41,374 nucleotides of DNA from an uncultured cyanobacterium. GTDB lineage: Bacteria; Cyanobacteriota; Cyanobacteriia; Cyanobacteriales; Microcystaceae. The translations under genes were made by a program, and so were the position numbers. This document shows positions 458 through 8,495 of the stretch, piece by piece. Each line of letters starts with the position of its first letter. Positions within the stretch are counted from its first letter, which is position 1. Where the stretch lies: positions 1-41,374 of the forward strand of contig CAIPYC010000062.1 in NCBI GenBank assembly GCA_903869185.1, read 5' to 3'. Below the pieces are notes generated by a model. That model did not search any database and had not been told where the DNA came from. It saw only the letters and a program-made list of their open reading frames with translations.

Positions 458-1102
458 ATGTTGACCGTTGCTTTGCCCAAAGGGGCTCTCTTGGCTGATA
501 GTATCAAAATTTTCAAAGAAATAGGTCTAGATTTCAGTTTACATCTTGAACCTGGTAACCGTCAGCTTCAGATTGCAGATCCAACAAACAGCGCAAAAGC
601 ACTTTTAGTAAGAGCTCAGGATGTCCCGGTCTATGTTGAGTATGGACAAGCCCAATTGGGAATAGTGGGTTATGATGTATTACTAGAGAAAAAGCCGGCA
701 GTTGCGCAACTTTTAGATCTTGGTTTTGGTGGTTGTCGGATGTCAGTGGCAGTACCCAAATCAAGCCCCTATAAGAGCTCTGTGCAATTACCACCGCATG
801 GACGGGTAGCATCAAAATTTGTGCATTGCGCCCAGGATTACTTTCATAAATTGGATCTGCCTGTGGAAATAGTTCCTCTTTCTGGCTCCGTTGAACTAGG
901 TCCTATTACAGGCATGTCTGAGGCAATTGTGGATCTTGTTTCCAGTGGACGAACACTCAAGGAAAATGGACTCATTGAAATAGACGTTCTCTTTTATAGC
1001 AGCGCCCGTCTGGTAGCCCATCCGCTGAGCTATCGCTTGAATTTGCATGATATTGCCCAGTGGATTGCCAGACTAGAAAAAAGACTACCAGGTACCCTGT
1101 GA
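458..1102 (+). CDS. hisG: ATP phosphoribosyltransferase, short form (HisG)
   Basis: First step of histidine biosynthesis: condenses ATP and PRPP to phosphoribosyl-ATP in the cytoplasm. The 214-residue protein begins [11 protein letters not shown], and has the family signature near the C terminus, [14 protein letters not shown] at about residues 164-177, plus the preceding [13 protein letters not shown] segment. The length matches the short HisG(S) form, which lacks the C-terminal histidine-binding regulatory domain and in known cases needs the HisRS-like partner HisZ; no hisZ is in this window. Its stop codon overlaps the likely GTG start of the ABC exporter gene (GTGA), so the two are probably translationally coupled although functionally unrelated. 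Confidence 0.95.
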
Positions 1103-2956: not shown

Positions 2957-4213
2957 ATGATAAGTTGGCTTTTAATAATGGCACTTGGATTTGTAGGCAG
3001 TTTTGGGCATTGCCTTGGTATGTGTGGACCATTGGCGGTAACCTTTTCACTATCCCAAAAGAGAGAATCCAAGCTATGGCAACAATTGGGCTTTCATTTA
3101 TTGCTCAATCTAGGCAGAATCCTCAGCTATAGCCTCATTGGCGCTGGTATTGGTGCGGTAGGCTCTGTCATCGTAGGGGGGATAGGCAGTGAATTTCGAG
3201 AACAGTTGGTCAAGATTACAGGCATCGTTCTCATTTGGATGGGATTGATCCAAATCAAACCCAAATGGCTCCCTAAATTTCCACTACTACATCCCTTACT
3301 AAAGGGAAATCTCCATGATTCACTTGGCTCTGCAATGCTTAAGCTTTCTAATAGTTCTCACCGCTTGATGCCTTTGCTGCTGGGGATGATATGGGGTCTG
3401 ATCCCTTGCGGTTTTTTATATGTAGCCCAGATTAAGGCTGCAGAAACCGGGGATATTTGGCAAAGCACTCTAACGATGTTTGGTTTTGGGTTGGGGACTT
3501 TGCCATCAATGCTTGGTGTGGGTATTTCAGCATCTAGGGTGAGCGCAGATAGACGTAGTCAACTTTTCCGTCTTGGTGGCTGGCTGATGATCCTCATGGG
3601 TTTAATCAATCTCCAGCGCAGTGGCAATACAATGAACGACCTGACAGGCTATGGTTCGCTCTTTTGCCTGATGCTGGCGCTCATCGCCAGGCCTATTTAT
3701 CGCCTTTGGATAGGCCCTTTGAAATATCGTAGGCTACTGGGATTAGGCGCGTTTGTTTTGGCCGTTGCACATACCTTGCATATGTTGCAGCATACTTTCA
3801 ACTGGAGCCTAGATGCTATAGGCTTCATGCCGCCAGAGCAAAGAATCTCTATCTTTCTGGGCTTTGTTGCTCTATTGCTCCTCTTGCCAGCAGCCTGTAC
3901 AAGCTTCGATAGCATTACCGAAAGATTGGGCAAGTACTGGAGATATATTCACCTTTTAAGCATTCCAGCTCTGATTCTCTGTATATTTCACATTTTGCTA
4001 ATCAACGGCTTCACCCCACGCTCCTGGATGGATAATTTGATGGTTGGGGCGATTGTAGCTCTATCTGTTTTGGTATTATTGATTCGTCAAAGGTACTTCT
4101 GGAGTGTATTCAAACTGTCAAAGTATTATGGTTCTATTGTTATTGGCTCAGCTTCCACCAACCGAAAGCCGGGCCAACGAAACGAATCACCATCCAGGCA
4201 GCCCCCAGGGTAA
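2957..4213 (+). CDS. TauE/SafE-like (COG2836) membrane protein with C-terminal ferric-reductase-like domain
   Basis: The 418-residue polytopic membrane protein has two halves. Residues 1 to about 215 look like the SafE/UreH-type transporter family related to DsbD and CcdA: N-terminal GSFGHCLGMCGP and, in the second repeat, GLIPCGFLY, each carrying a cysteine/proline motif inside a helix. Residues about 235-390 resemble a ferric-reductase/MsrQ-type heme domain: RRLLGLGAF followed by AHTLHMLQH, and later YIHLLSIPALILCIFH, supplying several helix-embedded histidines. This suggests transmembrane electron or thiol transfer, possibly linked to metal or cytochrome handling; the exact role is inference. 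The last about 25 codons lie antisense to the end of the DUF2839 gene, so the polar C-terminal tail may be non-essential. Confidence 0.8.
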   Translation: MISWLLIMALGFVGSFGHCLGMCGPLAVTFSLSQKRESKLWQQLGFHLLLNLGRILSYSLIGAGIGAVGSVIVGGIGSEFREQLVKITGIVLIWMGLIQIKPKWLPKFPLLHPLLKGNLHDSLGSAMLKLSNSSHRLMPLLLGMIWGLIPCGFLYVAQIKAAETGDIWQSTLTMFGFGLGTLPSMLGVGISASRVSADRRSQLFRLGGWLMILMGLINLQRSGNTMNDLTGYGSLFCLMLALIARPIYRLWIGPLKYRRLLGLGAFVLAVAHTLHMLQHTFNWSLDAIGFMPPEQRISIFLGFVALLLLLPAACTSFDSITERLGKYWRYIHLLSIPALILCIFHILLINGFTPRSWMDNLMVGAIVALSVLVLLIRQRYFWSVFKLSKYYGSIVIGSASTNRKPGQRNESPSRQPPG

Positions 4214-4355
4214 AAATCCCAATCCAAGCTCCCTGTGTTGTCAGCTTGTATGCATCCTTGGCCTGCCTTTGTGTTAAAGGTAACCAGGAAACAATAGGTT
4301 TATCTTGACCAAACTTATCTCCTAATGCTTCCTTACGACGTTTTGCCTCTCCCAT
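4140..4355 (-). CDS. DUF2839 family small membrane protein
   Basis: A 71-residue protein of a conserved cyanobacterial family of unknown function. It shows the typical start MGEAKRRKEALGDKFG, a central WLPLTQRQA segment, and a C-terminal hydrophobic helix (GAWIGIFTLGAAWMVIRFVGP). It probably sits in a membrane (thylakoid or plasma) with the basic N terminus in the cytoplasm. Its 3' end overlaps the convergent SafE-like gene by 74 nt. It is transcribed divergently from DUF1824 over a 43-bp spacer. Confidence 0.8.
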   Translation of the reverse strand: MGEAKRRKEALGDKFGQDKPIVSWLPLTQRQAKDAYKLTTQGAWIGIFTLGAAWMVIRFVGPAFGWWKLSQ

Positions 4356-6164: not shown

Positions 6165-6989
6165 TCAATTGACTAGTCCGGTCAAGGGAGAACTGGCACT
6201 GGCATAGTTTTTAACTGGCATCCTACCGGCAAGATAGGCTTGCCTTCCTGCTTTGGTTCCTAGGAACATTGCCATGGCCATTCTGACTGGATCTTTGGCA
6301 AGTGCTATGGCGCTGTTAATCAATAAGCCATCTGCTCCCATTTCCATAGCCAGAGCTGCCTCGCTAGGGCTGCCTATGCCCGCATCCACTATCACAGGAA
6401 CCTTTGCTTCTTCTATGATTATGGCAATATTGGCGGCATTTCTGATACCTTGTCCAGAGCCAATGGGTGAGCCCAAAGGCATGACTGTCACACAGCCGAT
6501 TTCCTCCAATCTTTTAGCCAATAGGGGATCGGCATTGATGTAGGGCAGTACCGCAAAACCTTCCTTTACTAGTTGTTGTGCGGCCTCAAGAGTGCCAATA
6601 GGATCAGGCAAAAGATATTTAGGATCTGGGATGACTTCCAATTTGAGAAAATTATTATCTTCCTGTCCCAACAACTTGGCCATTTCCCTACCCAATCGGG
6701 CAACCCTGATTGCTTCATCGGCATTTTTACAGCCAGCAGTATTGGGTAGCATCCAGATTCTGCTCCAGTCTATAGCCTCTGCCAGACCACCATGGCCAGC
6801 TGCATTGGACTGTACTCTTCGTACTGCAACTGTTACAATGTCGCATTGACTAGCAAGAATACTCTCTCGCATAGTATCAAAATCACTATATTTGCCAGAT
6901 CCGGTCATCAAGCGCGAATTGAATCTACGTCCAGCAATCACCAGGGGATCACTGTTTAATTTGGTTTCTGTTAGGGACATTGAACTCAT
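6165..6989 (-). CDS. thiG: thiazole synthase (ThiG)
   Basis: Forms the thiazole phosphate half of thiamine from deoxyxylulose 5-phosphate, dehydroglycine and ThiS-thiocarboxylate. Family marks: [12 protein letters not shown] near the N terminus, [40 protein letters not shown] (the lysine is the likely Schiff-base residue) and the phosphate-binding [15 protein letters not shown] and [11 protein letters not shown] choose ATG 6989 (274 residues), which has AAAGGA about 12 nt upstream and starts just after the thiO stop; a TTG at 7013 would overlap thiO. ThiO, which feeds it dehydroglycine, is immediately upstream; in some cyanobacteria the two are fused, here they are separate. Confidence 0.95.
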
Positions 6990-6996
6990 AAAATAA

Positions 6997-8055
6997 CTAT
7001 CCTTTACCAACAAATCGGTGGGGCGAAAATTCTTGGATCAGGGTTTCTTTTTTTCCTTCTACCAATAGATCACAGATGAGCTGACCGGTAATTGGAGCTA
7101 GAAGAATCCCGTTACGGTAATGGCCAAGAGCTAAAATAAGATTCTCGGCAAAATAACCTCCAAGCAGAGGAGCTTCATCTGGTGTAGCTGGTCTAAAACC
7201 CCACCACATCTCTTGTATTGGATAGTCCCTAAGAGGGGGATAAAGTCTGATAGCTCGCTCCAAAAGCAACCTGATTCCATCTGCGCTATTGCCATCACTC
7301 CAGCCCACATCCTCTACTGTAGCACCTATAAATAGCCGCCCATCAGCTCGGGGCACCAGATAAACACTATCTCCAAATATCACCCTAGTCAGGGGACTAT
7401 CTTTGGGCATTTGCAGAGCCAACATTTGTCCCTTGACGGGCCTAACCGGTAAATCAATTAGCTCTCTGGCATAGGCTCCATTTGCCAAAATATAGCACTG
7501 GGAGCTTATCTCTCCGGCAGAGGTTATCAATTGTTTAACTTTTCCCGCTTTTTCCTCAATAAATAGAACCTGGATATCTTCTTCTATTTTTACCCCCAAA
7601 TTGAGAGCAGCCTGATTGAGTGACTCGATTAAAAGCCTATTGTTGACCTGCCCATCTTCGGGATACCACCAGGCTCCTGTTATATCTTGAGCCAAATTGC
7701 CCTGTTGATCTTCTAGTTGACTGCGATCCCACCAGATTCCGCCTACAGAGCCCCCAGTGGAAACCTCAAAAGTAGGCGCTATGATTCCAGTGGGTAAATA
7801 ACCTACGTCTTTACCTGTGATATTTTTGAGTTTAGCTATCCATTGGGGATAGAGATTGAGGGAATTCTGACATAGACAAAAGAGAGAATCTAGGGCGATT
7901 TTTTCGGCATGTGGTGCCAACATTCCTGCAGCAGCTAATGAGGCCATCTTTAGCTCTTTTTTGCGTAAAATCTTGACATCTATACCCTTTAGCCTGAGCT
8001 CTATAGAGATGGCCAGGCCAATCACCCCGCCGCCAATGACTATAACTTCACTCAT
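6997..8055 (-). CDS. thiO: glycine oxidase ThiO
   Basis: FAD-dependent oxidation of glycine to dehydroglycine, used by ThiG to build the thiamine thiazole. The 352-residue protein begins with a dinucleotide-binding [17 protein letters not shown], then [12 protein letters not shown], and has the DAO-family C-terminal part with PVRGGQ-like [29 protein letters not shown] and the closing [11 protein letters not shown]. Its start overlaps the DUF4079 stop (ATGA), and thiG begins 7 nt after its stop, so all three are likely one transcript. Confidence 0.93.
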
Positions 8056-8495
8056 AAATTCTCTGGCAAATATTTCTGTACAACCCCCCAGCCAGTCCAG
8101 GAGACACCGGCAAAGCCAAGCAATAGTAAAAAATTGATGACAATATGCACCCTTCGCAACCAGGGATGATTCTGGATATTAACAGCAGAGATCGCCGATA
8201 AGCTCACTAGTAATACCACCAAAATCCCCAGTAATAAATGGAGAGAATGTCCCAAGCTGCCAAAATGCCCCAGCGTTCCCACAATTCCAACTGACAGGAG
8301 TAAAAAAACAAGCAGGACCAGGACAATACCTATGATCAGATGTAGGGAACGAAGATAATCTGGTAAGGGTTTTTCTGATGAGCGAAAATAGAACATGGCT
8401 CCTCCGAGGATTGCCAAAACAAAATAAGTCAATAGTGAAAAGCCCATCGACCAGGCTGCGATACGCCACAACCACAAAAAAGAGGGTAAGTTCAT
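8052..8495 (-). CDS. DUF4079-like four-helix membrane protein
   Basis: A 147-residue membrane protein with four hydrophobic helices. Histidines recur at equivalent helix positions (SLHLIIGI, GHSLHLLLGI, RVHIVINFLLLLGF), a pattern expected of a small b-type heme binding membrane protein. It resembles the cyanobacterial DUF4079 family; the assignment is from pattern memory. Its TGA overlaps the thiO ATG (ATGA), so it is translationally coupled to thiO. Whether it has any role linked to glycine oxidation is unknown. Confidence 0.6.
   Translation of the reverse strand: MNLPSFLWLWRIAAWSMGFSLLTYFVLAILGGAMFYFRSSEKPLPDYLRSLHLIIGIVLVLLVFLLLSVGIVGTLGHFGSLGHSLHLLLGILVVLLVSLSAISAVNIQNHPWLRRVHIVINFLLLLGFAGVSWTGWGVVQKYLPENL

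Follow-up and report, generated by a model that had tools for sequence, protein, structure and literature searches.

A cyanobacterial membrane protein that joins a DsbD_2 domain to a YedZ/STEAP-type ferric-reductase domain in one reading frame was found to travel with a small secreted protein that, judging by its conserved residues, looks like a metal-binding protein. Among 291 genomes of the class, 191 encode both the partner and the fusion or its heme domain, 12 the fusion or heme domain only, two the partner only and 86 neither (Fisher p 1e-57, the genomes being taken irrespective of relatedness). We tentatively propose, as a reading that falls somewhat short of an even chance, that the two proteins form a transmembrane redox machine for copper reduction and delivery outside the cytoplasm, in the periplasm or the thylakoid lumen.

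Domain architecture of the fusion protein

The gene lies at positions 2957..4213 on the + strand of the window (the whole 41,374-nucleotide stretch of DNA that was analyzed) and encodes 418 amino acids from its ATG. A sequence-only reading of this DNA had described a SafE/DsbD-like N-terminal half carrying the motifs GHCLGMCGP and LIPCGFLY. Both motifs were located, at residues 17–25 and 148–155, and the half was identified as Pfam DsbD_2 (PF13386; residues 7–216, 2975..3604, + strand; E 3.6e-45), with 154.8 bits against a curated cut-off of 24.9 and the GHCxGMC and PCG motif residues present in 54/54 sequences. The ferric-reductase-like C-terminal half that the same reading had suggested was also recovered: Ferric_reduct (PF01794) was matched by residues 248–342 (3698..3982, + strand; E 3.8e-10) with 40.3 bits against a curated cut-off of 28, the model resembles STEAP1 and others in fold, and the residue pattern is that of YedZ/STEAP. 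In NCBIfam, the C-terminal half scored 41.3 bits with MamZ (cut-off 650; the matching part corresponds to positions 477–596 of a 633-position profile) and 41.1 bits with MsrQ (NF003831; cut-off 130), both far below what membership demands.

The single frame translated on the opposite strand of the fusion ORF contained stops throughout. In the genome to which the window belongs (2.76 Mb, 205 contigs, 96.6% complete), the fusion ORF is the sole Ferric_reduct match, and a second, weaker DsbD_2 match (52.9 bits) was found on a different contig.

Invariant residues and the heme-type signature

Residue conservation was counted over 54 sequences, i.e., the window query and all 53 cyanobacterial loci among the best 80 of 119 relatives; alignment A1 displays the query and 41 of these 53, with 12 omitted. 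C19, C23, C151, R258, R259, H272, H332 and H345 are invariant in all 54 fusions. The three cysteines, two of them in CLGMC (C19 and C23; 3011..3025) and one in PCGFLY (C151; 3407..3409), also show no variation in the 27 non-cyanobacterial relatives among the best 80 of 119 (all coordinates in this section refer to the + strand).

According to excerpts of PMC3591440, YedZ and STEAP proteins have Arg instead of the first canonical heme histidine (NOX2 position 101), and YedZ and STEAP1 retain the histidines at 115, 209 and 222 in NOX2 numbering. In the alignment, R258 (3728..3730) takes the place of the first NOX heme histidine, 14 residues before H272 (3770..3772), and the three remaining histidines are H272, H332 (3950..3952) and H345 (3989..3991, 13 residues after H332), a YedZ/STEAP pattern present in 54/54 fusions. 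The Arg/His spacings are 14, 60 and 13 in the fusion vs. 14, 94 and 13 in NOX2 numbering; thus, the short ones agree with NOX2 and all agree with MsrQ. Alignment to E. coli MsrQ superimposes R258 and R259 on its RR pair and the three histidines on its own, with no gaps between the histidines, which are 60 and 13 residues apart in both proteins. The helix-embedded histidines that had been likened to those of MsrQ or YedZ are therefore spaced as in MsrQ and are invariant.

By charge counts and a rough hydropathy estimate, the loop bearing the RR pair (residues 254–259, three K+R) is likely cytoplasmic, which would put both H272 and H345 close to the outer side of the membrane. We infer that the C-terminal half is a heme-b domain, with H272 and H345 as predicted ligands of an outer heme.

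Structure prediction of the fusion

The AlphaFold model of the fusion had a mean pLDDT of 82.9 and a pTM of 0.65. Foldseek with the whole model returned no match at E ≤ 0.001, and a PDB sequence search gave chance matches to light-harvesting proteins only (E 0.15 and 0.21). When Foldseek's candidates were aligned with VIA-align, the best was STEAP1 (6y9b; Z 14.1, 179 residues, rmsd 3.6), in a leading group that comprised STEAP2, b561 (13.1), STEAP4 and SpNOX (12.3), all on parts of residues 200–403. All top 15 rows were heme or heme-handling proteins. These alignments lend moderate support to a heme bundle of the STEAP/NOX/b561 fold, given that helical bundles can reach Z values of about 13–14 by arrangement alone.

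No outstanding fold match was obtained for the DsbD_2 half within the whole-fusion model, where rows at Z of about 6–7 included NqrE- and Rnf-type subunits; such poor matches are no evidence for a new fold. The sequence-only reading had named, as findings that would tell against it, a lack of heme-compatible histidine pairing or C-terminal helices resembling the transporter family alone. Neither was observed: the histidine spacing is MsrQ/NOX-like, and the C-terminal half resembles heme proteins rather than the transporter family.

Distribution of the fusion and of its separate halves

A scan of genome contigs yielded 119 relatives; the analysis continued with the best 80 (L001–L080). Within these 80, all 53 cyanobacterial loci (L001–L053) contain both halves in one frame of 389–429 amino acids, so that the joining of the DsbD_2 and ferric-reductase domains is no chance event. 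The other 27 (L054–L080), from Nitrospirota, Campylobacterota and Chloroflexota, have the DsbD_2 half only, in ORFs of 226–262 amino acids, and their matches stop by residue 232 of the fusion.

At the genome level, the fusion profile matches 203 of the 291 genomes of the class, some via the heme half only, and six genomes from the window's own family lack a match; the distribution is broad yet patchy. In a tree of the N-terminal half, built from the window, the 27 non-cyanobacterial loci and 20 of the 53 cyanobacterial ones, one branch sets off the cyanobacteria and a second the Nitrospirota, and branches are long; this tree does not point to a donor of the DsbD_2 half. The fusion as such is probably already in print: von Rozycki et al. 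reportedly described, in 2004, YedZ fusions to transporters and electron carriers as well as cyanobacterial YedZ domains joined to biogenesis proteins. We know of no secreted partner or copper link in connection with those fusions. In two genomes, the fusion is interrupted close to the junction of the DsbD_2 and heme domains and occupies two frames (G128:C11:13668-14907, loci L100 and L119; G007:C17:186267-187482, loci L099 and L120), either as a naturally divided gene or as a broken one.

A secreted partner protein with a predicted N-terminal His and CxC

Directly downstream of the fusion, a gene for a secreted partner was found in 43 of 53 loci by neighbor clustering; a profile search raised this to 44 of 53, counting a truncated ORF in L013 (best 80 of 119 relatives). 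Of the nine remaining loci, L024 and L052 are uninformative, since their sequence ends within about 160 bases after the fusion. The partner is the only conserved neighbor, every other neighbor family occurring in at most nine of the 54 loci (window included). In 28 loci, the predicted partner start overlaps the fusion end by 20–26 bases, an arrangement that suggests translational coupling.

The partner consists of a signal peptide (assigned by eye), a His at predicted mature position 1, a second His at +13, a Trp and a CxC motif; some partner proteins also have a C-terminal membrane anchor (by eye). All 68 distinct partner frames contain both histidines, the Trp and the second Cys; 65 of them also have the first Cys, completing CxC. 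Ala precedes the first His in 65 of the 68, so that, with the cleavage site placed by eye, the partner would have the N-terminal His of a His-brace protein. Alignment A2 displays 18 of the 43 clustered partners, with 25 omitted. Pfam offers no family for the partners scanned, and Cox11 (PF04442), YtkA, FixH and CopC were not matched by those of L001, L014, L038, L006 and L107 (E ≤ 10) or L160 (E ≤ 0.01).

The predicted structure of the partner is a beta-sandwich (pLDDT 87.4), and its best match was CrdA of H. pylori (Z 13.4 over 104 residues, rmsd 2.4–3.1). HftA, FetP, FtrA and P19, several of them copper-bound, came next at Z of about 10–11.6 (VIA-align, Foldseek), and proteins not known for copper stood close behind CrdA, namely a DUF4426 protein (Z 11.5) and an OST subunit (10.7). 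As CrdA contains neither His nor Cys according to the available portion of PMC9182242, the likeness is a match of fold, not of site. 

Regarding the exceptions to co-occurrence, 10 of the 12 genomes with only the fusion or heme domain gave weak matches (E 4e-10 to 8e-7), and the four that were re-examined contained the heme half only. G260 (85% complete) combines a strong fusion score (7e-161) with no partner, and G074 has a match to the DsbD_2 half only and no partner. No published account of the partner or of a copper link was found in searches of open-licence literature.

Stand-alone heme domains and copper-enzyme neighbors

In eight genomes (families f24, f38 and f39), the heme domain stands alone. 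The partner is present in all eight, and DsbD_2 matches are weak in seven (23–43 bits) and missing in one; hence, a pair of heme domain and partner exists without a close DsbD_2 half. The five genomes that were re-examined have two heme copies each, in open frames of 208–284 amino acids.

In three of the five genomes whose heme-domain surroundings were examined, one heme copy immediately follows genes for cytochrome oxidase, namely subunits II, I and III in G094 and G104 and subunits I and III in G061. Curated cut-offs were exceeded by the subunit I genes of G094, G104 and G061 and by the subunit II genes of G094 and G104, while for the subunit III genes of all three the subunit III family was the best match, below its cut-off. 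The second heme copy of G061 is followed by the partner. No oxidase genes were found beside either heme copy of G013 or beside one of the two copies of G033; a same-strand heme oxygenase gene immediately precedes one G013 heme domain (L125). The second G033 copy, G047, G072 and G083 were left out of this survey of heme-domain surroundings. With regard to the partner, a Cu/Zn-SOD gene is located directly upstream in two of six genomes examined (G047 and G013), the wider surroundings in G033 and G072 being left out.

A further copper signal came from the relatives of the DsbD_2 half. All five Nitrospirota relatives among the best 80 of 119 lie amid genes for cbb3 oxidase or copper assembly (FixO, FixG/CcoG, FixH or a copper-type ATPase), with Pfam support for the genes of L054, L059, L066 and L079 and motif evidence only for L063. 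A motif scan of the other 22 non-cyanobacterial loci within the same 80 revealed no cbb3 cluster, and a copper-type ATPase is present in two of these 22.

A proposed route for copper reduction and delivery

Taken together, the oxidase genes beside the heme domain, the Cu/Zn-SOD gene beside the partner, the copper-assembly genes beside the N-terminal-half relatives and the His/CxC anatomy of the partner point to copper. In excerpts of the cited sources, STEAP proteins reduce Fe(III) and Cu(II) alike (PMC3591440), a DsbD family protein of an ammonia oxidizer is upregulated under copper limitation and proposed to bind Cu(I) (PMC7785015), and YcnI binds Cu(II) via an N-terminal His brace (PMC8424229). 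On the basis of these neighbors, the partner's anatomy and these precedents, we propose that the heme domain would reduce copper, which would then be handed over to the partner. Electrons would be moved outward by the heme-b domain, through the outer heme at H272/H345, and would reduce Cu(II) to Cu(I), as in STEAP proteins. The DsbD_2 half, by means of its invariant CxxxC and PC cysteine, may carry reducing equivalents and/or Cu(I) through the membrane. The secreted partner would be the acceptor, its N-terminal-His/His pair being suited to Cu(II) and its CxC to Cu(I), and could then load copper enzymes such as cytochrome oxidase. The fusion, its invariant residues, the heme-type fold match, the partner's adjacency and co-occurrence and, in some related genomes, the copper-enzyme neighbors are observations; heme binding, copper binding, the way in which electrons flow and the enzymes served are the parts of this scheme that we infer.

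The sequence-only reading had envisaged that a single protein could pass electrons or thiol equivalents across the membrane to a heme-linked acceptor. Its domain calls stand; given the conserved secreted partner and the links to copper enzymes, copper or the thiols of copper proteins outside the cytoplasm now appear likelier than a generic heme-linked acceptor, and an MsrQ-like service to MsrP is not upheld.

The scarcity of the usual oxidase copper chaperones also speaks for the copper reading: SCO1 exceeded its cut-off in five of the 291 genomes and Cox11 was found in none, while COX1 is present in 288. A broader version of this reading, which we consider rather unlikely, is that the heme-based cupric reductase–DsbD_2 fusion and its His/CxC partner constitute the Cyanobacteria's own copper route to the oxidase and other exported copper enzymes. 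If the broader version were true, a heme-type cupric reductase would take part in bacterial copper-enzyme assembly as a functional stand-in for CcoG plus Sco/Cox11. The pair, whose heme domain is usually fused to DsbD_2, is present in 191 of 291 genomes and is a concrete, testable candidate for oxidase copper delivery beyond Atx1/PacS.

Other observations temper the copper reading. COX1 occurs in 84 of the 86 genomes that lack both partner and fusion, so the pair is not strictly or generally needed for the oxidase. The two strong SCO1 matches (G202 and G233) are both in genomes without the partner, too few to show replacement, and the weaker ones above cut-off are in G024 and G180, with the partner, and in G096, without it; the pattern in these five genomes proves nothing. 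Since no neighbor family other than the partner exceeds nine of 54 loci, no copper gene is a conserved neighbor of the fusion. Atx1 and PacS already supply the cyanobacterial lumen with Cu(I), as described in portions of PMC7558416 and PMC12292863. Also on this side are the 22 non-cyanobacterial loci with no cbb3 cluster in the motif scan, the heme copies of G013 and G033 with no oxidase neighbor, the absence of His and Cys from CrdA, the proteins not known for copper that score close to it, and the diverged partner copy on another contig of the window genome. Moreover, the partner motif leaves the metal unfixed, as some families of N-terminal-His proteins prefer nickel, according to part of PMC12537917.

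Alternative explanations

The copper reading was weighed against a thiol-reducing relative of CcdA/DsbD, which we regard as improbable. Here, the DsbD_2 half would take electrons from cytoplasmic thioredoxin and reduce the CxC of the partner, the heme domain would be a second electron entry, and the partner would keep exported cysteines reduced, either for cytochrome c maturation or in CuA. The three cysteines invariant across all fusions and their 27 relatives would suit such a relay, as would the near-constant CxC of the partner. In addition, cyanobacterial cytochrome c maturation is of the System II type, CcdA included, as stated in the accessible part of PMC9145763. However, the partner model is a beta-sandwich with invariant His rather than a thioredoxin fold, and where the heme domain stands alone, in eight genomes, the partner is retained with a weak DsbD_2 match at most.

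Iron uptake, with the fusion as ferric reductase and the partner as a P19/FtrA-like periplasmic protein, is less probable again. It draws on the Ferric_reduct match of the C-terminal half and on the likeness of the partner model to FetP, FtrA and P19, but the family clustering of neighbors yielded no iron permease as a conserved neighbor, and the linked enzymes that were found are copper enzymes. To our knowledge, the ligand set of P19 also differs from N-terminal His plus CxC, which we count against iron.

Finally, an MsrQ-type heme subunit serving the periplasmic methionine sulfoxide reductase MsrP is very improbable: MsrQ is one of the two best NCBIfam matches, level with MamZ, and shares its histidine spacing with the fusion, but its score is far below the cut-off, the sole PF00174 match in the window genome (L158, G000:C162) is on another contig and sits beside a cytochrome b561 gene of its own, not beside the fusion, and neighbor clustering found no conserved gene neighbor other than the partner.

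Relation to known systems

The YedZ/MsrQ and STEAP branch, as portrayed in part of PMC3591440, shares with the fusion an Arg substituted for the first heme His, three matching histidines and the STEAP1 fold match, whereas the cyanobacterial protein has a DsbD_2 half and a secreted partner of its own and lacks both an NADPH domain and an adjacent MsrP. The link to cbb3 clusters with CcoG, CcoH, CcoI and DsbD_2 is through the Nitrospirota relatives of the DsbD_2 half, which sit there. CcoG is a cupric reductase in the available text of PMC7558416; it uses Fe-S clusters, in contrast to the predicted heme domain of the fusion.

In the sources as far as they were available, the partner has in common with YcnI, CopC and other N-terminal-His metal proteins that it is a secreted beta-sandwich with N-terminal His (as in YcnI), and with the oxidase copper factor Cox11 a CxC motif (PMC9145763). 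It is unlike the oxidase copper factors YtkA/CtaK and Cox11 in that no Pfam match was found among the partners scanned, and it differs from YcnI, CopC, Cox11 and YtkA in combining His/His with CxC and in traveling with the fusion. A further relative is MamZ, which the C-terminal half matches in NCBIfam below the cut-off. MamZ is a YedZ-like domain fused to a transporter; its transporter half differs from that of the fusion, and the protein is longer.

Deletion of the partner gene at the window locus

The window and L001 share hisG, an ABC transporter, the fusion (78% identical at the protein level), a 71-amino-acid gene and the gene after it, which in the window is DUF1824. The partner gene of L001 (7172-7603) lies between the fusion and the 71-amino-acid gene; a blastn comparison revealed that a 424-base stretch (7187-7610), which holds nearly all of it, is cleanly missing from the window. 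The 71-amino-acid gene of the window, which we take to be DUF2839-like, is convergent to the fusion (4140..4355, − strand; frame read from the blastn output), and its end overlaps the fusion tail. As a result of the deletion, the last 20-odd residues of the fusion are read from the other strand of this gene. The deletion joint and the non-homologous C-terminal tail correspond to residues ~396–418 (4141..4213, + strand; blastn window vs. L001), and the conserved protein thus ends near residue 395.

An intact gene of the partner family (148 amino acids) is present on contig C196 of the window genome and is 48% identical to the L001 partner. Its sequence would fit a moved copy or a second copy; given this lower identity compared to the fusion, and its location on another contig, it may be a paralogue.

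Neither of the upstream candidates, hisG and the MsbA-like ABC transporter, was retained as a functional partner of the fusion, the ABC cluster appearing in nine of 54 loci at scattered positions. The HisG of the window (458-1102, 214 amino acids) is above the cut-off of TIGR00070 and is of the short form, which needs a HisZ partner. Elsewhere in the window genome, the product of L158 is a molybdopterin oxidoreductase of 235 amino acids, encoded directly beside a cytochrome b561-type gene of its own. Within the window, a DUF4079 protein weakly like cytochrome b561 is encoded at 8052-8495 on the − strand, with two further − strand genes downstream of it (6165-8055).
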